Source: Hyphomonas atlantica corrig. (GTDB lineage: Bacteria > Pseudomonadota > Alphaproteobacteria > Caulobacterales > Hyphomonadaceae). From it: a DNA stretch of 64,000 nt. The stretch covers positions 1-64,000 of the forward strand of contig NZ_AWFH01000023.1 in the NCBI RefSeq assembly GCF_000682715.1, written 5' to 3'. The position numbers and the translations under genes were made by a program. Under the pieces are notes generated by a model. The model ran no database searches, was not told the origin of the DNA, and saw nothing but the letters and a program-made list of their open reading frames with translations. How positions within the stretch are numbered: the stretch's first letter is position 1; each line of letters starts with the position of its first letter. This document shows positions 48,910-58,103 of the stretch, piece by piece.

Positions 48910-49932
48910 CTAGTCGGAAGAAAAATTTCCTCTTGTTCGGTTCGCGAATGCGACAAGCGACAACATGACTGGCACTTCAACAAGCACTCCAACCACAGTC
49001 GCCAACGCAGCGCCGGAGTTCAAACCGAACAGACTGATCGCTACCGCCACCGCAAGTTCAAAGAAATTTGAAGTCCCGATCAGAGCACAAGGAGCGGCAA
49101 TATTGTGTGGCACCTTCCAGGCCCAGGCAGCTCCGTAGGCAAGCGCAAAAATTGCATATGATTGGATCAGGATTGGTACAGAAATCAGAACAATGATCAG
49201 TGGATCAGACAGAATCACGCGGCCCTGGAACCCAAAAAGCAAAATGACTGTGCCGAGCAACCCAATAATGGAAAGCGGCTTCATATGTGACAGAAAGCGA
49301 TGCAGGTGCGGTTCTCCCCCGCGACCCAATAGAAACGAACGCAACGCCACACCAGCTGCGAGCGGCAGCAGGACGTACAGTCCTACAGATAGTATCAGCG
49401 TCTCCCACGGAACACTCAATTCAGTCACACCAAGAAGAACGGCAACAATTGGCGCAAAAGCGAATACCATAATGGCGTCATTCACGCTGACTTGAACCAA
49501 TGTGTAGTTTGGATCTCCACGCGTAAGCTGGGACCACACGAATACCATTGCTGTACACGGAGCCGCACCCAACAGTATCAATCCGGCAATGTATTGGTTG
49601 GCGTTTTCCGCAGGGATAAGATCTGCAAACACGTATCGGAAGAACAAAACGCCCAGCGCGGCCATGCTGAAGGGCTTTACGAACCAATTTACGATCAAGG
49701 TTATCATCAAGCCCTTCGGCTTCTTGCCAACGTCCTTCAATGTGGAGAAATCGACACCCATCATCATTGGTAGAACCATCGCCCAGATCAGCACGGCTAC
49801 TGGAAAATTGACGTTTGCATACTCGAACGACGCCAAGTCCCGAAATATACCGGGAAGCATCTGCCCCAATCCTATGCCCAGGGCGATCGCAGCAGCGACC
49901 CACAGCGACAGGTACCGTTCAAATTTTCCCAT
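48910..49932 (-). CDS. arsB: Arsenite efflux transporter Acr3
   Basis: A 340-aa, ten-helix BART-superfamily arsenite/H+ antiporter. The family core [32 protein letters not shown] contains the conserved Cys required for transport, and [19 protein letters not shown] is the second conserved block. It exports As(III). It lies downstream of arsR with a candidate ArsR-controlled promoter in the gap. No arsC or arsH is seen nearby. Confidence 0.94.
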
Positions 49933-50027
49933 CGAGGTCTCCTACCAATCGGCACTCTTGCCAGATCCAGCGGGACACCAAGACAAATGCGCTCCGCCAG
50001 CTTCGGATCGCACATAGTACGGCAAGA

Positions 50028-50057
50028 TCATTATTTCAACGTTTATTGAAATATCAA
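50028..50057 (-). promoter_or_regulatory. acr3 promoter with embedded ArsR-type operator
   Basis: On the minus strand, -35 TTGATA (50057-50052), 18-nt spacer, -10 TAATGA (50033-50028). The spacer holds most of a perfect 8-bp inverted repeat TATTTCAA-N6-TTGAAATA (50032-50053), the kind of AT-rich dyad bound by ArsR repressors. Confidence 0.65.
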
Positions 50058-50058
50058 A

Positions 50059-50394
50059 TCAGCATTTGACGACGCTGATATTGGATAGTGACCCGCAGAC
50101 TTCGGGCCGTCCTCGACAACAATTCTCGACAAGAACCGACAATAGTTCACTGACGTTTTCGAACTCTGCGCGATAGATCATATGTCGACCATCACGCGCG
50201 ACGCTTACGAGACCGGAGCTGACCAGGATATTCATGTGCCCCGACAATTTGTTAGGCGCGACATCCAACTCTCTCGCGATAGCGCCCGCTTGGAGCCCCT
50301 CCGGTCCCGCCTCCATCAAAGCACGAAATGCCAATAGTCGCGTTTCCTGTCCGAGCGCAGACAATTGCTTAAGCGTGGGGGCGAGATCTGTCAT
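50059..50394 (-). CDS. arsR: ArsR-family arsenic-responsive repressor
   Basis: A 111-aa winged-helix repressor. MTDLAPTLKQLSALGQETRLLAFRAL leads into the recognition region AIARELDVAPNKLSGHMNILVSSGLV. The C-terminus has a cysteine cluster (ENCCRGRPEVC, then a final Cys), a plausible As(III) thiolate site as in ArsR proteins that use C-terminal cysteines. Start 50394; open upstream codons are not conserved. It is divergent from the second TonB receptor and upstream of acr3. Confidence 0.93.
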   Translation of the reverse strand: MTDLAPTLKQLSALGQETRLLAFRALMEAGPEGLQAGAIARELDVAPNKLSGHMNILVSSGLVSVARDGRHMIYRAEFENVSELLSVLVENCCRGRPEVCGSLSNISVVKC

Positions 50395-50563
50395 GCGAAC
50401 AAATGTAGTCGCTGCCGGGTAAATGTATAGCTCTGGAAAGAACGGCGAAGACGATGCTGCAGCCGCCACATCCTCTCACCTCAACGATCTCCGACAGTTG
50501 CCATTCCTTCGTCCCTGATACGAGACAAACCGCCAAACACCTCCCCGCGATGGCAAATCCTAA

Positions 50564-50585
50564 TTGCGAGTAATTTTCATTTGCA
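50564..50585. promoter_or_regulatory. Fur-like box before the TonB receptor
   Basis: An imperfect dyad with TTGC at one end and TCATTTGCA at the other, 75 nt upstream of the receptor start. It is identical at 18 of 22 positions to 56630-56651. On the reverse strand it reads TGCAAATGAAAATTACT, close to Fur-type boxes. Confidence 0.6.
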
Positions 50586-50659
50586 AAAAAAGCGCAGCGG
50601 AGGTATTCGGGCCGCCTAGTTGCGACTGAGTTGCATTTTCTACTTCTATGGAGGGGTCC

Positions 50660-52645
50660 ATGAACCACACTATTCGCAAGAACACCCTACTAGGCGCCAC
50701 CGCTATCGTCACAGCCATCGCGTTCAGCACGCCTGCATTGGCGCAGGATGCATCAGGTTCCGATGACGCCGAATTCCTTGGAACGCTAACTCTTGGGGAG
50801 AGTAAGCGCGAAGTCCAAGCTGATACGGCGACGCCCGTTACGGTAATCGATCAAGAGGAAATAGATGACAGGCAAGCGAGTACGGTGGCGGAGTTGATCG
50901 ATTCTGTTCCCGGCGTATCTCTCGTGAACGGATCCACGCCAGTTGGCTCAGGCATCAACATCAGGGGTTTCGGCGCGAACGGCACATACGGCACCGACCA
51001 GAAAGTTGCCATTCAAATTGACGGTGCGAGTGTCGGGTCGGAAGAACTATATCGTGTTGGCACTCAATTGTTTACCGATCCATACCTCTACAAGAGCGTT
51101 GAAGTCATTCGGGGAACGGTCGGCAGCTTTGAATATGGATCCGGCATCATTGGCGGCGTTGTACGCCTTGAAACCATTGATGCGTCAGATCTGACAGGTG
51201 GTGAACCAGGCTTCGCGCTTCGCCAGACACTCGGCGGCGCAACGAACATGGATGGCTTCAACTCTTCAACAACACTCGCAATTCAGCCAACCGAAAATTT
51301 CGAAGTACTGGCAAACTATTCCTGGCGTGAACAACACAACCAAGAAGATGGTCACGACCGCGTCATCGAGAATAGTGAATTTGAGCTGCCGTCCTACCTC
51401 GTGAAAGCGCGCTACTCCGCCGGAGACCACAGTGTCACAGCCAGCTACACAAACACAGAGACGACCGAACGCGACAAGCCGTACGACTCTTTTGGAACCA
51501 CCGGTGGATCATTCGGTAACGTCGATCGAGACACGACGTCAGAAACCATCGCACTGAAATACAACTACAACCCTCTCACGAACGACCTGATCAATCTCGA
51601 CGTAATCTACTCATACGCAAATCAAGAAATCGATCAGACCTGCATCGTTGGCAGCGGGCCATTCGGGTGTTTCGCGACAGTTGATTCAGACCACCAGTAT
51701 GAAACCTCAAAGTTAACGGTGAAGAACTCTGCCTTCATTGAGGCGGGGGTCCTTACGCACGACATTCGCGCTGGCCTCGAGTACATTTTGAAAGAACGTC
51801 TGGATGCCAGCTCTGCTCCAGGAGGCGAAGACAACAGATACGCATTCTTTGTTGTGGACAATATCGAGTTCGGCGGGGGTTGGAGCTTTACTCCGGCACT
51901 TCGCTTCGAGACTTCAGAAGTGGAAGGCGTTCTCGATGACGGCAGCAATGCGAGCTATGATAATGATGCGCTCATGGGTGGCGCTTCGCTCCGCTATGAG
52001 TTCGACAATGGCATCGCTCTGTTCGGCAGCTATGCGTACACAGAAAGCCTTCCAATCCTCGACGATCTTGAGAACGAAACCTATATGACCCAGCCTGAAA
52101 TAGGAGAAACGGTCGAAATCGGTGGCTCATATGATCGTATCGGCGTGTTTGGCCGCGATGACTCGCTATCTATCAAAGCCAATTTTTACCGGACCGATCT
52201 TGAAGACAATACATCCTATTCCGGCGTCGATTCCGTTGAACTGTCCGGCCTGGAATTGGAAGGGTCATACGCTCGACGCGACGGCACTTACGTCGATGTC
52301 AACGCCAACATCATTGATGGTGAGCAAACCAACACGACCGGCACAAAGTCTGACTGGCGAAACCTCACTGCTGACAGCATGCGCGTGACACTTGGCAAGA
52401 GATTCTCGCCGCTCGCTGACCTGTCCACGGAGTTTGTTGCAGCCGCGGACGATGAGATTAATGATCGCCCCGGCTATGTCACGGTCAATCTGCGCGCCAC
52501 AATCACGCCACAGGAAGGCGTTCTGGAAGGCACCTCATTCCGCTTCGGAATCGAGAATGCACTGGACATGAACTACATGCCAGCGCTCGCCACCCGGACC
52601 GCTGCGGGACGCAATATCAAATTCACGGTGTCAAAATCCTTCTAG
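50660..52645 (+). CDS. TonB-dependent receptor (heme/metal type)
   Basis: A 661-aa outer-membrane receptor. Signal peptide NTLLGATAIVTAIAFSTPALA; TonB box and plug LGESKREVQADTATPVTVIDQEEI, STVAELIDSVPGV, NIRGFG, KSVEVIRGTVGSFEYGSGIIGG. The barrel ends KFTVSKSF. The plug is closest in style to heme/hemoglobin receptors, but ligand residues cannot be assigned. A loop holds a Cys pair (CIVGSGPFGC). ATG 50660 follows GGAGGGG. A Fur-like box precedes it and a dedicated ExbB-ExbD-ExbD-TonB set follows, separated by two hairpins. Confidence 0.9.
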   Translation: MNHTIRKNTLLGATAIVTAIAFSTPALAQDASGSDDAEFLGTLTLGESKREVQADTATPVTVIDQEEIDDRQASTVAELIDSVPGVSLVNGSTPVGSGINIRGFGANGTYGTDQKVAIQIDGASVGSEELYRVGTQLFTDPYLYKSVEVIRGTVGSFEYGSGIIGGVVRLETIDASDLTGGEPGFALRQTLGGATNMDGFNSSTTLAIQPTENFEVLANYSWREQHNQEDGHDRVIENSEFELPSYLVKARYSAGDHSVTASYTNTETTERDKPYDSFGTTGGSFGNVDRDTTSETIALKYNYNPLTNDLINLDVIYSYANQEIDQTCIVGSGPFGCFATVDSDHQYETSKLTVKNSAFIEAGVLTHDIRAGLEYILKERLDASSAPGGEDNRYAFFVVDNIEFGGGWSFTPALRFETSEVEGVLDDGSNASYDNDALMGGASLRYEFDNGIALFGSYAYTESLPILDDLENETYMTQPEIGETVEIGGSYDRIGVFGRDDSLSIKANFYRTDLEDNTSYSGVDSVELSGLELEGSYARRDGTYVDVNANIIDGEQTNTTGTKSDWRNLTADSMRVTLGKRFSPLADLSTEFVAAADDEINDRPGYVTVNLRATITPQEGVLEGTSFRFGIENALDMNYMPALATRTAAGRNIKFTVSKSF

Positions 52646-52665
52646 AAGGAGCTCCGACCTTCTAG
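52642..52665 (+). repeat. Hairpin over the receptor stop codon
   Basis: CTAGAAGG/CCTTCTAG, 8-bp stem with 8-nt loop, including the UAG stop at 52643-52645. Followed 12 nt later by a larger hairpin. Confidence 0.6.
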
Positions 52666-52676
52666 TCCGTGGAAAG

Positions 52677-52710
52677 GCAAGCACCGAGCGCACTGTTGCT
52701 CGGTGCTTGC
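52677..52710 (+). repeat. Perfect 13-bp hairpin between receptor and exbB
   Basis: GCAAGCACCGAGC pairs perfectly with GCTCGGTGCTTGC around an 8-nt loop. No U-tract follows, so it is not a standard terminator; a Rho-assisted attenuator or an mRNA-stabilising element that sets receptor:motor ratio is more likely. Confidence 0.7.
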
Positions 52711-52774
52711 AGCCATCGGCAGACGACATCGACCATCGAATTATGATATTTTCGAACCGTGAACGGACATACTT

Positions 52775-53407
52775 ATGCTCACCATGTTTCAATCCCTTTA
52801 TCAGGTCGGCGGCCCCGTCCTCGTACTAATCATCGCAATATCGACGTTTACTCTGGCGTTAATAGTTTACAAGTATTGGCAGTTTCGCTCTGACAAAATC
52901 GGACAGTTGAAAGCTATCAAGTCCGCTCTGTCCTCGTTGAATCGTGGTGATGTCAGAGAGGTCTACACGCTTTTATCCGGGTCAAGCCATTGGCTCGCTC
53001 AACTCCTGATCGACGCGATCCCGCTAAGGGATCGCGAGGGCCTGATTCCTCGCTTGGAAACGGAAGCCGAGCAGTCTCTGCAGCCGTATGAAAGTGGCTT
53101 TCGAATTCTGGACACAATCGCTCAACTTGCACCTCTGCTTGGACTGTTGGGAACGGTTCTGGGCATGATTGAGGCATTTCAGGCGCTTCAAACCGCCGGC
53201 TCTCAAGTTGATCCGGCCGCCCTTGCTGGCGGCATTTGGGTCGCACTGCTCACAACGGCCGCTGGTCTTTCCGTCGCCATGCCGACATCGATCGCGCTCT
53301 CATGGTTCGAAGCTCAAATTGATCGTGAACGCGCAATGGCAGAGCATGCTTTTACCGTCTTAGTCACTCCTACATCGGAAGAGCCCACCAGCACCAAACT
53401 GGAGTAA
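52775..53407 (+). CDS. exbB: ExbB/TolQ-type proton channel protein
   Basis: A 210-aa MotA/TolQ/ExbB protein. Helix 1 is VGGPVLVLIIAISTFTLALIVYKYW (about 9-33), and helices 2 and 3 are LDTIAQLAPLLGLLGTVLGMIEAF and GGIWVALLTTAAGLSVAMPTSIAL, the two pore helices with the conserved LAPLLGLLGTVxGM motif. With the two ExbD proteins it energises TonB. First gene of the motor operon; 8 nt before exbD1. Confidence 0.93.
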   Translation: MLTMFQSLYQVGGPVLVLIIAISTFTLALIVYKYWQFRSDKIGQLKAIKSALSSLNRGDVREVYTLLSGSSHWLAQLLIDAIPLRDREGLIPRLETEAEQSLQPYESGFRILDTIAQLAPLLGLLGTVLGMIEAFQALQTAGSQVDPAALAGGIWVALLTTAAGLSVAMPTSIALSWFEAQIDRERAMAEHAFTVLVTPTSEEPTSTKLE

Positions 53408-53414
53408 CTGAACC

Positions 53415-53804
53415 ATGGCATTAAAACGGGTTCGCCGACGCCGTCGCGCTTCAATCACCTCTCTTATAGATGTGATATTCTTGTTGTTGTTGTTCTTCAT
53501 GCTGGCATCCACTTTCTCGGAATTCTCCGAAGTTGAAATTTCCTCAGCGAAATCCCATGGCGGTGTCGATAGCGATCCTCATGTGATCAAACTACTGGTT
53601 ACTAGTAATGGCGTCGACCTGTACGGAAAAACTATTCATGTCGAAAATCTATCCACTGAGCTTCAAGATCTTATCAGACCAGAGAGCAGTTCCATTGTAG
53701 CGGTAGGCGTTACCGAACAAGCGACTACGCAGAACCTGATTGATGCTTTGTCCCTCATTCGAACATTCGAAAACTTTGAGATCGTCGTCGAGGAGCCCTC
53801 ATGA
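53415..53804 (+). CDS. exbD: ExbD-type biopolymer transport protein, copy 1
   Basis: A 129-aa ExbD. A basic N-terminus (RVRRRRRASITSLIDVIFLLLLFFMLAS) holds the proton-carrying Asp at LIDVIFLLL (about 17) in the single transmembrane helix. The periplasmic domain follows. It overlaps the second exbD by 4 nt. Confidence 0.92.
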   Translation: MALKRVRRRRRASITSLIDVIFLLLLFFMLASTFSEFSEVEISSAKSHGGVDSDPHVIKLLVTSNGVDLYGKTIHVENLSTELQDLIRPESSSIVAVGVTEQATTQNLIDALSLIRTFENFEIVVEEPS

Positions 53805-54181
53805 AGCGTCTTCGTCAAAAGCCTCAGCGCGATCCTGTGATCTCGTTGATCAACATTGTATTCCTTATTCTGATTTTTTTCATGGTGGCTGGTTCTCTGT
53901 CGTCACCGCCAGATCCGTCTATAAAGTTTGTTCAGACGCAAAACCTTGAATGTTGCGTCCCGCCGAATGCTATTTCAGTAGATGAGTTTGGACATTTCAC
54001 CCAGTCTGGCGGTGTGATCACGATTGATAAACTTGTTGCGGAACACCGCGACCAAAGTGAGCCTCTAAGATTGCTGCCGGATAGAGAGTTACCCGCAAAG
54101 CGGCTGCTTCAACGGATCAAACAGCTTCGCGTGAGAGGCCTGACCGATATCATCATCGTTACCGAGGATACGAGTAAGTGA
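53801..54181 (+). CDS. ExbD-type biopolymer transport protein, copy 2
   Basis: A 126-aa ExbD paralogue: QRDPVISLINIVFLILIFFMVAGSL. The residue where copy 1 has the proton-binding Asp reads Asn (LINIVFLIL versus LIDVIFLLL). So this copy probably cannot carry protons and may be structural, giving an asymmetric ExbD dimer. The periplasmic part has a Cys pair (ECCVPP). Overlaps exbD1 by 4 nt and tonB by 4 nt (GTGA). Confidence 0.9.
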   Translation: MKRLRQKPQRDPVISLINIVFLILIFFMVAGSLSSPPDPSIKFVQTQNLECCVPPNAISVDEFGHFTQSGGVITIDKLVAEHRDQSEPLRLLPDRELPAKRLLQRIKQLRVRGLTDIIIVTEDTSK

Positions 54182-54999
54182 TTCAGAAGAATATTCTGCG
54201 TTTTTCCGCTGCGCTTTCAGCTGCGACCGCAACACATTTGACTGTGTTGGCTTATACGATGTCCCAGCCCTTGTCCGGGCCGGCATTGATTGCTGGCAAC
54301 TCTTTCAGCGTGGAACTGGGCTCCATCGCCGAAACGACCCCAAGTTCGGATCCAAAGCCTACAAAGCAGGCTCCGGCGGAACCAGAACCACAGCCTGCAC
54401 CCATCAAACCGGATTCTACTCCCGCGCCAAACCCAAACAAAGAAACCGCCCCCCTGCTCCCGGATACGACACTTCTTCCGGAGCCACCTCCAACAATAGA
54501 GCAAGAGCCTGTCGTCGAAACTAAGGCCGCACCCGAACAAGAGGATGACAGCAGCAATCTGGTTTCAGACCCCGCGCATCTGGATTCATCAAAGGACCTC
54601 GATCAGGCTGTATCGGCGGACACCGGCTCGGAAAAATCCAGTGATGCTGAAAACGCCACGACGGAAACCGAGACCACCCCCGCGGGCGAAGCGCCAAGTG
54701 ACACTCTGAACGATGCGAATTCAGGTGCGCCTGGCAACGCTGCAGAGTCAAATTACAAGGGCCTGGTGATGCAGCATCTATCACGTCAAAGGCGCCCTCG
54801 CGCCTCTAGTCCGGGATCGGCATTCGTCGAGTTTCGTATCAGCCCACGTGGCGCGGTGAAAAGCATCAGGATTTCAAGAAGTTCTGGCTCGTCACGCTTT
54901 GATAGAGAGGCAATCATTGTCGTGAAAAAGGCGGCTCCTTATCCGAAGCCACCCTTTGGTGTGAACACCATGTTCACTGTTGAAATTGCAGGCACCTAA
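54178..54999 (+). CDS. tonB: TonB-like energy transducer
   Basis: A 273-aa TonB. It starts at GTG 54178 overlapping the exbD2 stop. The N-terminal helix (FSAALSAATATHLTVLAYTM, about 9-28) keeps the His of the TonB SxxxH motif. A proline/acid-rich linker spans about 55-190 (KQAPAEPEPQPAPIKPDS and on), and the C-terminal TonB fold is at about 195-273 (VEFRISPRGAVKSIRISRSSGSSRFDREAIIVVKKAAPYPKPP). It ends the motor operon dedicated to the upstream receptor. Confidence 0.92.
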   Translation: MIQKNILRFSAALSAATATHLTVLAYTMSQPLSGPALIAGNSFSVELGSIAETTPSSDPKPTKQAPAEPEPQPAPIKPDSTPAPNPNKETAPLLPDTTLLPEPPPTIEQEPVVETKAAPEQEDDSSNLVSDPAHLDSSKDLDQAVSADTGSEKSSDAENATTETETTPAGEAPSDTLNDANSGAPGNAAESNYKGLVMQHLSRQRRPRASSPGSAFVEFRISPRGAVKSIRISRSSGSSRFDREAIIVVKKAAPYPKPPFGVNTMFTVEIAGT

Positions 55000-55065
55000 A
55001 CATCTTCCACCTAATCCGATAACGGTCGTTCTTGACTATCGACGTTCAGAAACAGTCAGATAGCA

Positions 55066-56553
55066 CTATCCCGTCTTACCAAAAGTGATGGCGATGGCGC
55101 CCAGCTCTTCTCCAGCTTCGAGCTTCTCTGCTATAGCTTGATCGGATAGCGTAAAGCTCAAGCGCTCGTGCTGATGTCCCCCATGCTCGCGCGCAGCTTC
55201 CAGGTGCAATGTGTACTCACCTTCCGGCACCGGTTCACCATCGTCATTCAGACCATCCCACTTCATGGTATATTCACCGGGACGACGTGTCGGTCCTGAC
55301 ACTGCATCAACAAGACTTCCCGCTTTGCGGCCAAAGCGCCTGTGCCAGTAATAATTCTCTTCCATCCAGCGCGCCTCTTCACCGGCCAGCATGAGGATTC
55401 TAACCAAATTGCGTTCGGCATCCGCAATCCAAACCGCAACATATGGGCGCTCGTAGTCGGCAACGTTGTGTTCGGGTATCTCAAAACTCACCGCGAACTC
55501 TGTGCCGTCCGGCCATACGGCCCCGACTTCGTCACTTCTAGCATTCTGCAATAGCAAGCCGGACCAGCCAGATGTCGCGTGGTGTCGCCCGTCTGAGGAT
55601 ATGATCTCTGCTTCCACGCCAGGCTTGGACTCTATAAATTCAAGACCACCCTTCAGTTCCATGACCATCAACGCAGTCGCGATTGCGTCGGCTTCGATCG
55701 CCGAAGCAGCGTAAACGCTTGCCGACTTGATGTGAGATACTGGCCAACCGTCAGCTGGCGAAATGATGTGTCCAAATTCTTGACCATTGATTTCAAGACT
55801 TCGCGGACTTTGCGCACTTGTCGCCACCGCGCCACCAGTGAGTTTTAACATCGTTCCATGCGCACTAGCACCGTCCGCCAGCTCGGACTCAGACGTTACA
55901 GCGACTTTCCATTGCCCTCCATCGTCAGAACCCTTGCCCCAAACGCGTATGTCGCCTCCAATATTGAGAAGTAGGCCTTCTGCGCTTGGCGCAGCCGCTC
56001 GACCAACTTCAACAGCTGAATCCAATATGTATCCCTTGGCCAATGCATCCATGTTGAATTGAACAATGTCGGGACGCTGGATAGTCGCTCGACCCTCGTC
56101 AATCTCTACATCCGCTCGCCGTATTTCGCCCGCTTTAATTCGCAGTTCGGGTCGCTGCGGAAGCGTCTGACTTTTAGCAGCAACTGACCATTCATTGACC
56201 AATTCGCCGACACGACAACTCAGAGCCTGATCTGTCTCCACCCGATAAGCTTCACAGCTATTCCAAACTTCCAAGAGGTCCGTCGAAACACGTTGTTCAT
56301 GTGTCGCGTTCAGTCGCCGTAGTTCGGATTCCTGGTACAAGCTGAACACGGAATTAAGTCGTTCGATTTCTTCAAGTATCGCTGTCTCGACTCGAGTTGC
56401 CTCACTTTGCGTCGGCGCCACTACCACCAGATCAAAAGACGTTCCCAGCACGTAGTCGTGATGACTCTTGAACGTATCAGCATGAGCAAATTCACGATTG
56501 GCGACGGTCAGTCCGCACACGACCGCCAATCCGATGAGCGTATATCTGAGCAT
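55066..56553 (-). CDS. ApbE-like FMN transferase fused to DUF2271
   Basis: A 495-aa exported two-domain protein. Signal peptide MLRYTLIGLAVVCGLTVANREFAHA. Residues about 35-315 are an ApbE (FAD:protein FMN transferase) domain: LLNIGGDIRVWGKG, FGHIISPADGWPV and AIEADAIATALMVM, including the Asp/Thr metal and flavin positions. Residues about 350-495 match DUF2271 (AVWIADAERNLVRILMLAG, then YYWHRRFGRKAGSLVDAVSGPTRRPGEYTMKWDGLND). DUF2271 is more often a separate gene beside ApbE, so the fusion is notable. No obvious flavinylation target with a DGAT-type motif is seen in the neighbours. It converges with tonB and diverges from the DUF4198 gene. Confidence 0.85.
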   Translation of the reverse strand: MLRYTLIGLAVVCGLTVANREFAHADTFKSHHDYVLGTSFDLVVVAPTQSEATRVETAILEEIERLNSVFSLYQESELRRLNATHEQRVSTDLLEVWNSCEAYRVETDQALSCRVGELVNEWSVAAKSQTLPQRPELRIKAGEIRRADVEIDEGRATIQRPDIVQFNMDALAKGYILDSAVEVGRAAAPSAEGLLLNIGGDIRVWGKGSDDGGQWKVAVTSESELADGASAHGTMLKLTGGAVATSAQSPRSLEINGQEFGHIISPADGWPVSHIKSASVYAASAIEADAIATALMVMELKGGLEFIESKPGVEAEIISSDGRHHATSGWSGLLLQNARSDEVGAVWPDGTEFAVSFEIPEHNVADYERPYVAVWIADAERNLVRILMLAGEEARWMEENYYWHRRFGRKAGSLVDAVSGPTRRPGEYTMKWDGLNDDGEPVPEGEYTLHLEAAREHGGHQHERLSFTLSDQAIAEKLEAGEELGAIAITFGKTG

Positions 56554-56629
56554 CAGGTCTCCAATTGCCAAGCTTCAGTCACATCACGTCGAAACCCAAG
56601 AGGCGGATGCGATGGAGCATAATTCTTAC

Positions 56630-56651
56630 TTGCAACTAAATCTCATTTGCA
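56630..56651. promoter_or_regulatory. Fur-like box in the apbE/DUF4198 divergent region
   Basis: Same 22-bp element as at 50564 (18 of 22 positions), with TTGC and TCATTTGCA ends. It is 48 nt upstream of the DUF4198 start and 77 nt upstream of the apbE-like start, so it can control both. Confidence 0.62.
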
Positions 56652-56698
56652 TATTGTGCAAGCCAAATACTGATACATTTTCAACCTAGGGGCCTTTC

Positions 56699-57496
56699 AT
56701 GAACGGACTGAAAACCTGCGCGTCCGCGCTCACTGCCATTATTGCCTTCAGCGGGGCCGCACATGCCCACACATCATACGTCGTGCCGAACGTCTTTGTG
56801 ACAAGCGAAGGCCAATACGTGACGGCTCAATCCGCTTTCACCGAAGACCCATTCGTTCCCGAAATCGCTGTGGCGTCGGACGATTTCCACGTCGTCTTGC
56901 CCGATGGCGTAAGAGACGATTTCGACGTTATCACGCCTCTGCACCAAGTAGTGATTCTTGAAGAGTCTCTTCGCGATGAAGGCACATACCGACTCACAAC
57001 TGGTGTACGTTATGGTCGGAAAAGCCAAAAAGCGCTTGTTGATGGAAAATGGGTCCCGGTATTCGGACCCGATGCACAAGTCCCTGAGAATGCCACTGAA
57101 GTCATCAGTAGCCAGACTGTAACCGTCGCAGATGCATATGTCACAAAGGGGGCCTCAACGTGGGAACCTGTCAACTTGGCGCTTGGCCGCCTGGTTCTGA
57201 AACCGTTGTCTCACCCCAACGAAATCTATTTGGAAGATGGTGCTGAATTCGAAATCTTGTTCGACGGCAAACCATTGGCGAACCAGTCTGTCGAAGTCAA
57301 ACGCGAAGGCGGGGCATATGAGGATGCCAAGTTTGAGCAACACATTGAAACCGACGAAAACGGAATTCTGTCGCTCTCTTTCGATCGAGCGGGAAAATAC
57401 CTGATCATGACTCGCCATGCCTCGCCTGCTCCGGAAGGCGCTGAAGTCGACGAGCATAGTCACACCACTTCTCTAACATTCGAAGTCGCAAAATAA
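56699..57496 (+). CDS. DUF4198-family exported protein
   Basis: A 265-aa protein. The signal peptide (KTCASALTAIIAFSGAAHA) would be cleaved after AHA to leave His at the mature N-terminus: HTSYVVPNVF. That N-terminal His is characteristic of DUF4198 and suggests metal binding through the alpha-amine and imidazole. Beta-sandwich domains follow (LVLKPLSHPNEIYLEDGAEFEILFDGKPLANQSVEVKREG; TDENGILSLSFDRAGKYLIMTRH), then a His-bearing tail (VDEHSHTTS). Related proteins occur with nickel, copper or iron uptake genes. It heads a unit with the EF-hand gene 27 nt downstream. Confidence 0.86.
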   Translation: MNGLKTCASALTAIIAFSGAAHAHTSYVVPNVFVTSEGQYVTAQSAFTEDPFVPEIAVASDDFHVVLPDGVRDDFDVITPLHQVVILEESLRDEGTYRLTTGVRYGRKSQKALVDGKWVPVFGPDAQVPENATEVISSQTVTVADAYVTKGASTWEPVNLALGRLVLKPLSHPNEIYLEDGAEFEILFDGKPLANQSVEVKREGGAYEDAKFEQHIETDENGILSLSFDRAGKYLIMTRHASPAPEGAEVDEHSHTTSLTFEVAK

Positions 57497-57523
57497 CATT
57501 CTGATCTAATACGGATACACAAT

Positions 57524-58036
57524 ATGAAATACGCCATGCCCGCCCTAGCCATCCTAGCTTTGGGTCCGCTCACCGCTTGCACAACTCAAGAAGCCATCAC
57601 GACTACTGAATCGGAAATTGCCACCACAACATCTGAAACCGCAGAGCAGACAGACCGGCCGATAAGCAGCGCACGCGGCCATAGCAAGGCGGCCTTCTTC
57701 GATAAATATGACATCAACGGAGATGGCAAGGTTTCAGAAGTCGAGTTCATGGGCGAACGCGAGGATGGCTATCGTCGCAGGGACGCAAATGGCGACGGGC
57801 AGGTCCATGCAGAAGAATATGTATCCGAGTATGAAGTCCGTCTTTTGAAGCAAATGGAAGACCAACGCACGCGCCAGATCGACCAAGCCGACTTCAGGTT
57901 TACCGTATTGGACAAGAATGAAGACGGAAATCTGTCACTGGATGAATTCCACGCATCCGGCTCTCGTATGTTCTCCGCTCTGGACACGAATGAAGACGGG
58001 ATCGTTGATGAACTAGACGACGCAGAGAATTACTGA
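57524..58036 (+). CDS. EF-hand lipoprotein
   Basis: A 170-aa envelope lipoprotein with lipobox LTAC (Cys about 19). After a Thr/Ser-rich linker there are four EF-hand-like loops: DINGDGKVSEVEF, DANGDGQVHAEEY, DKNEDGNLSLDEF and DTNEDGIVDELDD. The first three have canonical Ca2+ ligands at positions 1, 3, 5 and 12. It follows the DUF4198 gene closely and is ended by a terminator, so the two are cotranscribed. Its role in the metal locus is unknown. Confidence 0.9.
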   Translation: MKYAMPALAILALGPLTACTTQEAITTTESEIATTTSETAEQTDRPISSARGHSKAAFFDKYDINGDGKVSEVEFMGEREDGYRRRDANGDGQVHAEEYVSEYEVRLLKQMEDQRTRQIDQADFRFTVLDKNEDGNLSLDEFHASGSRMFSALDTNEDGIVDELDDAENY

Positions 58037-58068
58037 ATCAGAACCAATCGTCTCTTATTGAACGAAAC

Positions 58069-58103
58069 AAGCTGCGGCTCCTCCGAGGGGCCGCAGCTTT
58101 TCC
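58069..58103 (+). terminator. Terminator after the EF-hand gene
   Basis: AAGCTGCGGC/GCCGCAGCTT (58069-58078 with 58090-58099), extended by a weak inner pairing, followed by TTCCTTTTCC. It also lies just beyond the convergent MFS gene end. Confidence 0.8.

Follow-up and report, generated by a model that had tools for sequence, protein, structure and literature searches.

An ApbE–DUF2271 fusion cluster with Fur-like boxes in Hyphomonas atlantica and a likely PepSY electron donor encoded in trans

Published clusters of ApbE, DUF2271, DUF4198, PepSY and TonB-receptor genes are candidates for the reduction of iron in the periplasm under Fur control (PMC8238504). The window analyzed here, the whole stretch of 64,000 nucleotides at positions 1 to 64,000 of contig NZ_AWFH01000023.1 of the marine bacterium Hyphomonas atlantica, carries a related cluster, probably for iron starvation, at positions 50564–58103, in which the ApbE FMN transferase is fused to DUF2271, a flavin-acceptor domain. 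The fusion is accompanied by a TonB-dependent receptor, a private TonB motor, a DUF4198 protein and an EF-hand lipoprotein. We take the family COG1477, a name used for one of the relatives below, to be ApbE. The cluster is a real, conserved variant of the published kind; new are the likely electron donor in trans and the drifting flavin site in the fusion.

The clusters of PMC8238504 (eLife 2021) share the same four domain types, some of them with TonB receptors, and are repressed by Fur in Shewanella and Caulobacter. A single ApbE–DUF2271 protein is noted there (RUL87804.1), and flavinylation of DUF2271 is shown for Amantichitinum ursilacus. DUF2271 is flavinylated at [S/T]GA[S/T], and replacement of the predicted threonine abolished flavinylation in one protein (PMC8238504). 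Compared with these clusters, the window has ApbE fused to DUF2271, an SGPT motif and a PepSY gene outside the cluster, and adds the EF-hand lipoprotein and the private motor. In Alteromonas macleodii, COG1477–DUF2271 and DUF4198 genes (MASE_18630–18640) lie near an iron-responsive TonB-dependent transporter; the available text mentions neither an EF-hand protein nor a private motor or PepSY protein at that locus and does not pursue it in more detail (PMC7190382). In Caulobacter crescentus, the receptor CC2194 and the DUF4198/EF-hand gene CC2193, parts like those of the window, are under Fur, and the Fur-bound operon CC3059–3063 encodes a transporter, DUF2271, DUF4198 and ApbE (PMC3751524). 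This transporter is a PepSY-family protein, and insertions in the operon lower fitness in EDTA (PMC11870441). Such parts are at two loci in Caulobacter, whereas the window unites them at one locus with a fused ApbE–DUF2271. HiuABC and the FoxB PepSY reductases pair a Fur-regulated receptor with a PepSY inner-membrane protein for a proposed reductive release of iron; the available account mentions no ApbE, DUF2271 or DUF4198 (PMC13001220), whereas in the window electrons would pass via a covalent flavin. A preliminary description of the window held that these families were known separately; that no longer stands, since the combination is already in print (PMC8238504, PMC7190382, PMC3751524), as are DUF2271 flavinylation and the link of such clusters to Fur and iron (PMC8238504, PMC3751524, PMC11870441).

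The same description called the locus self-contained, which did not hold: the PepSY membrane protein of relatives, a trait of the published clusters, is absent beside the window fusion, and a different PepSY protein is encoded on another contig. In three fused genomes of the genus (G020, G004 and G019), the fusion gene is followed, at an overlap of 4 bases, by a gene for a 215-residue PepSY_TM_like_2 protein (PF16357), whereas no PF16357 gene lies next to the fusion in the window genome (G000, to which contigs C61 and C10 below belong), G003 and G025. A PF16357 search finds a single gene in every one of these six genomes, next to the fusion in the former three and distal in the latter three. 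The distal gene of the window genome lies at C61:73877–74611 with its own Fur-like box upstream. The search was extended to 13 further genomes. Across the 18 fused genomes searched whole, a PF16357 gene is the immediate 3′ neighbour of the fusion in 11; all seven genomes without it carry a distal one, and only one of the 11 has a distal one as well. Ten genomes are therefore local only (G004, G019, G020, G941, G943, G944, G947, G948, G154 and G709), seven are distal only (G000, G003, G025, G942, G945, G792 and G825), one has both (G946) and none has neither; G548 was not counted as a fusion, the genome of L076 was left out, and G937, taken to be the same as G945 from identical sequence at the PepSY locus, was counted once. 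The Fisher p value is 0.00025, or 0.00041 without the near copy G709, and both values, uncorrected for relatedness, overstate the association because the genomes are related. The local and distal labels need four changes on the fusion tree, at least two of them forced by well supported branches; 56–65 of 500 label shuffles need as few changes, so the labels are not strongly clustered on this tree. In the PepSY tree, the local proteins group together in a single clade (100/100) that is separate from the split and orphan proteins described below; the row L147 (G792), which has a wrong frame, a long branch and two conserved histidines missing, was not relied on. His55, His78 and His182 of PepSY are kept in 27, 26 and 26 of 27 proteins, the exception being this mis-picked frame, and are candidate heme ligands by analogy within the family. 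In the literature around this family, of which our coverage is partial, we found no treatment of PepSY loss from fused clusters.

The genus also has a PepSY of split type, named after unfused, split operons. This type is present in 13 genomes of the genus, beside DUF2271 and DUF4198 in ten and alone in three (G000, G003 and G937; over 3.6 kb at the PepSY locus, the sequence of G937 equals that of G945, from which L073 comes). All three orphan-PepSY genomes carry the fusion without a local PepSY, and an orphan is found in none of the eight genomes shown to lack the fusion (p = 0.018). G940, which has no orphan PepSY, was never searched for the fusion, and p would be 0.014 if the fusion is absent there. 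Judged by shared neighbours, G025, a sister species, keeps a complete PepSY–DUF2271–DUF4198–ApbE split operon at the orphan site, and the PepSY tree groups the G937 orphan and the PepSY of this G025 operon as sisters (96/95). A Fur-like box, TGAGAATGACTTGCAA, is matched at 15 or 16 of 16 positions upstream of all 13 split or orphan PepSY genes of the genus (15 for the window genome). The Henriciella algicola gene also scores 15, and 11 local PepSY genes score 8–10. Beside the orphan PepSY on C61 (L052, 10209–15355), and also in G003, two large genes occupy the place of the rest of the G025 split operon; from their sequence appearance, they are presumably error-prone polymerase and ImuB-type genes.

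The fusion itself is encoded at 55066–56571 on the minus strand. Its ApbE half matches PF02424 with 181 bits as well as solved FMN transferases, and its catalytic histidine is kept, as His268 aligns with His257 of Vibrio cholerae ApbE (6nxi, compared with the H257G mutant 6nxj). The DUF2271 half matches PF10029 with 139.9 bits and is the only DUF2271 match of the genome at an E value of 0.001. A statement that this is also the only ApbE of its genome was dropped, as the whole-protein search behind it had missed the split ApbE of G025, which a later scan found. The site motif of the fusion, DAVSGPT, spans residues 422–428, with Thr428 at the acceptor position. For comparison across proteins, we counted the motif after dropping L073 (unknown bases over the site), L114 (G548, whose ApbE half is not strong enough to count as fused) and L068 and L071 (which duplicate L049 and L048), and kept L110, a near copy of L075, among 19 fused proteins. 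The strict motif is present in 4 of 17 proteins not fused to ApbE, and the looser form [ST][GS][AP][ST] is found in 17 of 17 unfused proteins versus 5 of 19 fused ones. In the fused proteins, the variants are SGPT, AGPT, SEPT, SRPT, SHAT, SQAS, TRPT, ARET, ARAT and TKPS, with E, Q, R, H or K at position 2 in ten of the 19. The last residue, the acceptor serine or threonine, is kept in all 19 and in 36 of 36 proteins overall. Flavin transfer within one chain may have relaxed the motif around a constant acceptor. None of the other cluster proteins has the motif, and a search of the six fused genomes of the genus, which did not extend to NqrB/RnfD and DUF3570 substrates, turned up no FMN_bind protein.

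The eight genes of the cluster span 50648–58036, and the open reading frames and Pfam scan bore out the places, strands and domains first described, with no further plausible gene between them. The receptor (665 residues, 50648–52645, PF07715 and PF00593), an ExbB-type proton channel protein (52775–53407, PF01618), two ExbD proteins (53415–53804 and 53801–54181, both PF02472) and TonB (54178–54999, PF03544) are contiguous on the plus strand, so that ExbB, ExbD and TonB adjoin the receptor gene as expected of a private motor. The fusion gene is divergent from the plus-strand gene of the DUF4198 periplasmic protein (56699–57496, Pfam), which is followed on the same strand by the EF-hand lipoprotein gene (57524–58036), with four EF loops by Pfam and sequence and a lipobox judged by eye. 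An intrinsic terminator with a 14-pair stem and a T-rich tail lies at 58069–58099 on the plus strand, and the end first given for the locus, 58103, is just beyond this hairpin, where no gene ends. Promoter and terminator scans give about as many hits as shuffled sequence (7 versus 6.0 and 8 versus 7.3), and the hairpin at 58069 is set apart from this background by its 14-pair stem. Upstream of the receptor, ACR3-type arsenite efflux and ArsR-type regulator genes, both on the minus strand, occupy 48910–50469.

Two Fur-like boxes lie on the plus strand of the cluster, box 1 at 50564–50585 upstream of the receptor gene and box 2 at 56630–56651 between the divergent fusion and DUF4198 genes. Box 1 sits between the ArsR-type regulator gene and the receptor gene. 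The two boxes are identical at 18 of 22 positions, as first described, and their common pattern, TTGCNNNTNNNTNTCATTTGCA, has two matches without mismatch in the 3,604,440-base genome, both in this cluster. A further 12 sites match with two mismatches, and the reversed pattern, as a control, has one match in all. Two of these two-mismatch sites, C12:17912 and C62:110846, look Fur-like and were set aside since they lie inside called open reading frames. Against a 20-position consensus, the window boxes score 18 and 19, while of 687 background windows of 410 bp from five stretches of the same genome four reach 15 and none reaches 16; because this consensus was picked with sight of the window boxes, the window rows do not count as independent. 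The boxes are thus not scattered at random across this genome. Each promoter also holds a second, weaker box-like site of 14 of 20 (50620 and 56613), the latter overlapping box 2. Among 12 Hyphomonadaceae loci, a site of at least 15 of 20 lies upstream of the receptor in all 12 and upstream of DUF4198 in 11, the twelfth reaching 14; these counts include two corrected gene starts, as L069 and L070 scored 12 each with over-long open reading frames and 17 and 14 after correction. The Kordiimonas loci score 15–16 at both genes. In L112, L119 and L114, the DUF4198 boxes reach 15, 15 and 17 and the receptor boxes 9–11, and L074, L113 and L076 have no box above 13 where scored. These predicted boxes and their conservation within the family point to possible control of the cluster by Fur.

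The cluster recurs beyond the window genome, and the counts that follow are lower bounds because the first look was loose. At least 6 of the 37 genus genomes carry the fusion, and among the matches listed none comes from the 24 genomes that represent other families of the order. Class-wide, at least 2 of 385 genomes have both halves in one frame among the matches listed; phylum-wide, at least 4 of 398 genomes fall below an E value of 1e-100, and in f218, a family of another class, at least 2 of 147 do so at 1e-50. A scan by named loci gives at least 13 loci, 11 of them fusions, in Henriciella, Hyphomonas, an uncultured member of the Hyphomonadaceae, Kordiimonas, Emcibacteraceae and Puniceicoccaceae. 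Hyphomonadaceae loci pair the fusion with receptor, ExbB, ExbD, TonB, DUF4198 and EF-hand genes, and the gene set is found, with changes, in Henriciella, Kordiimonas, Emcibacteraceae, f218 and a Puniceicoccaceae bacterium. DUF4198 and EF-hand genes accompany the fusion in Kordiimonas, Emcibacteraceae, Puniceicoccaceae, G792 and G825, and the G154 locus has the fusion with DUF4198 and PepSY only. The cluster genes therefore co-occur in relatives, and this, together with the non-random boxes, upholds the first reading of a linked system under shared Fur-like boxes and makes metal import with periplasmic flavin chemistry plausible.

Some observations stand beside this distribution. A second fusion of G709, a genome close to Kordiimonas laminariae (L111, 9154–10647), has no PepSY, DUF4198 or receptor match within 20 kb. 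In Puniceicoccaceae bacterium K14 of the Verrucomicrobiota (L074), the fusion lies with PepSY, DUF4198 and EF-hand genes, which suggests transfer between phyla. In Alteromonas antoniana (L079, 8335–9432), PepSY is fused to DUF2271, a second fusion type, which joins the flavin domain to its likely donor. Two adjacent PepSY_TM proteins of the window genome at C10:9892–11276 (L066), one of them with NAD-, FAD- and 2Fe–2S-binding domains, possibly form a second periplasmic reductase.

The reading we favor, with slightly better than even confidence, is reductive iron uptake under Fur control, carried out by a protein that flavinylates itself and has its donor encoded in trans. The module would be repressed by Fur, the receptor and its own ExbB–ExbD–ExbD–TonB motor would import a ferric chelate into the periplasm, and the ApbE half would place FMN on Thr428 in the DUF2271 half of the same protein. 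A PepSY protein would pass electrons across the inner membrane to the covalent flavin; in the window genome, this donor would most likely be the PepSY encoded in trans on C61 behind its own box. The covalent flavin would reduce Fe(III) to Fe(II), and the DUF4198 protein and the EF-hand lipoprotein would bind the released metal and hand it on. A broader proposal, which we hold tentatively and at somewhat less than even confidence, is that the self-maturing fused flavoprotein has a drifted motif with a kept acceptor and an exchangeable donor, that the PepSY of the split operon, a paralog of the fused cluster, serves lineages that lost the local PepSY, and that the operon has been stripped to PepSY and its Fur-like box in three species.

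Besides the overstatement by the Fisher values, several results weigh against the favored reading of reductive iron uptake. The window motif is SGPT and not [S/T]GA[S/T], and the strict motif occurs in none of the 19 fused proteins. The predicted model of the fusion has a pLDDT below 50 at model residues 392–422, the site included, so the reach of the site to the ApbE active site was not judged from geometry. Receptor boxes are absent or weak (9–13 of 20) in L074, L076, L112, L114 and L119, and TGAGAATGACTTGCAA is weak outside the family (12, 12, 10 and 11 of 16 in G792, G825, G946 and G548). PF03929 has five matches in the window genome, four of them at places other than C61:73976, one of these other PepSY_TM proteins being the C10 protein with NAD-, FAD- and 2Fe–2S-binding domains, and such proteins are possible donors. 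These four matches and the redox domains on C10 are what would favor the same module with another PepSY_TM donor, for example of the C10 type, and another role for the C61 protein; the complementary pattern concerns PF16357, however, and the C61 gene keeps a conserved box in a comparison that covered PF16357 genes, so we regard this variant as rather improbable. The site motif also bears on a further rival, in which the fusion is a transferase for another protein and its DUF2271 half has lost the site and acts as a docking domain. The departure from [S/T]GA[S/T] in all 19 fused proteins and the residues E, Q, R, H or K at position 2 in ten would agree with such a loss, but the acceptor is kept in all 19, the motif is lacking from the rest of the cluster proteins and FMN_bind proteins are absent from the six genomes searched, and we give docking little credence.

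The ligand has also to be weighed, and iron is ranked above heme and nickel as the main one. A heme-uptake locus would have a HutA-like receptor, with the flavoprotein and DUF4198 handling periplasmic heme or heme iron. The best NCBIfam family of the receptor is indeed the heme/hemoglobin receptor TIGR01785, and its three PDB matches are heme receptors, including ShuA (3fhh, E value 1.6e-19); the 206 bits fall below the cut-off of 317. FRAP and NPNL are heme receptor motifs, and neither string occurs in the 665 residues, which hold six histidines, none of them in the plug match at 58–171. In Caulobacter, a Fur-regulated 'Hemin receptor', CC2194, is adjacent by locus number to the DUF4198/EF-hand gene (PMC3751524) and is HutA by elimination (PMC13001220). 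The Kordiimonas and Emcibacteraceae clusters have receptors only 25–26% identical, yet still encode the fusion together with PepSY, DUF4198 and EF-hand proteins, and heme uptake appears unlikely to us on balance. Uptake of nickel or another transition metal in place of iron is suggested by a DUF4198 protein of Ideonella sakaiensis that binds nickel with a Kd of 18 nM through its N-terminal histidine and His18 (9gcb), and whose family has TonB receptors and NikR among its neighbours (PMC12537917). The DUF4198 model of the window (mean pLDDT 84) matches the fold of this nickel-bound protein and of Zcp (9mhi) in Foldseek at 16–19% identity, and the Zcp structures 9mhi–9mho were solved with zinc, copper and cobalt. 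A single-sequence PDB search with the window protein gave no match, whereas an alignment search did. Ala23–His24 and His172–Pro173 are invariant in 13 of 13 DUF4198 proteins, and His24 follows a signal-like stretch, with cleavage judged by eye, at the predicted mature N-terminus; the protein may be an N-terminal-histidine metal protein. No histidine of the window protein has the spacing of the second ligand His18, the metals tried on the nickel protein, in the available text, are nickel, zinc, cobalt and copper, with iron not among them, and the published relatives respond to iron and Fur (PMC3751524, PMC7190382). We consider nickel uptake very unlikely. Neighbourhood by chance of unrelated genes has a negligible probability and is refuted, since the fusion and the DUF4198 and EF-hand genes are found together again in five or more families from two phyla.

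The donor to flavinylated DUF2271 has so far been inferred from gene neighbourhoods, as far as the available literature goes. The loss of the local PepSY, with another PepSY kept alone behind a Fur-like box, amounts to a natural experiment linking donor and acceptor, and the drifting motif of the cis-fused proteins would show what ApbE needs in its substrate.

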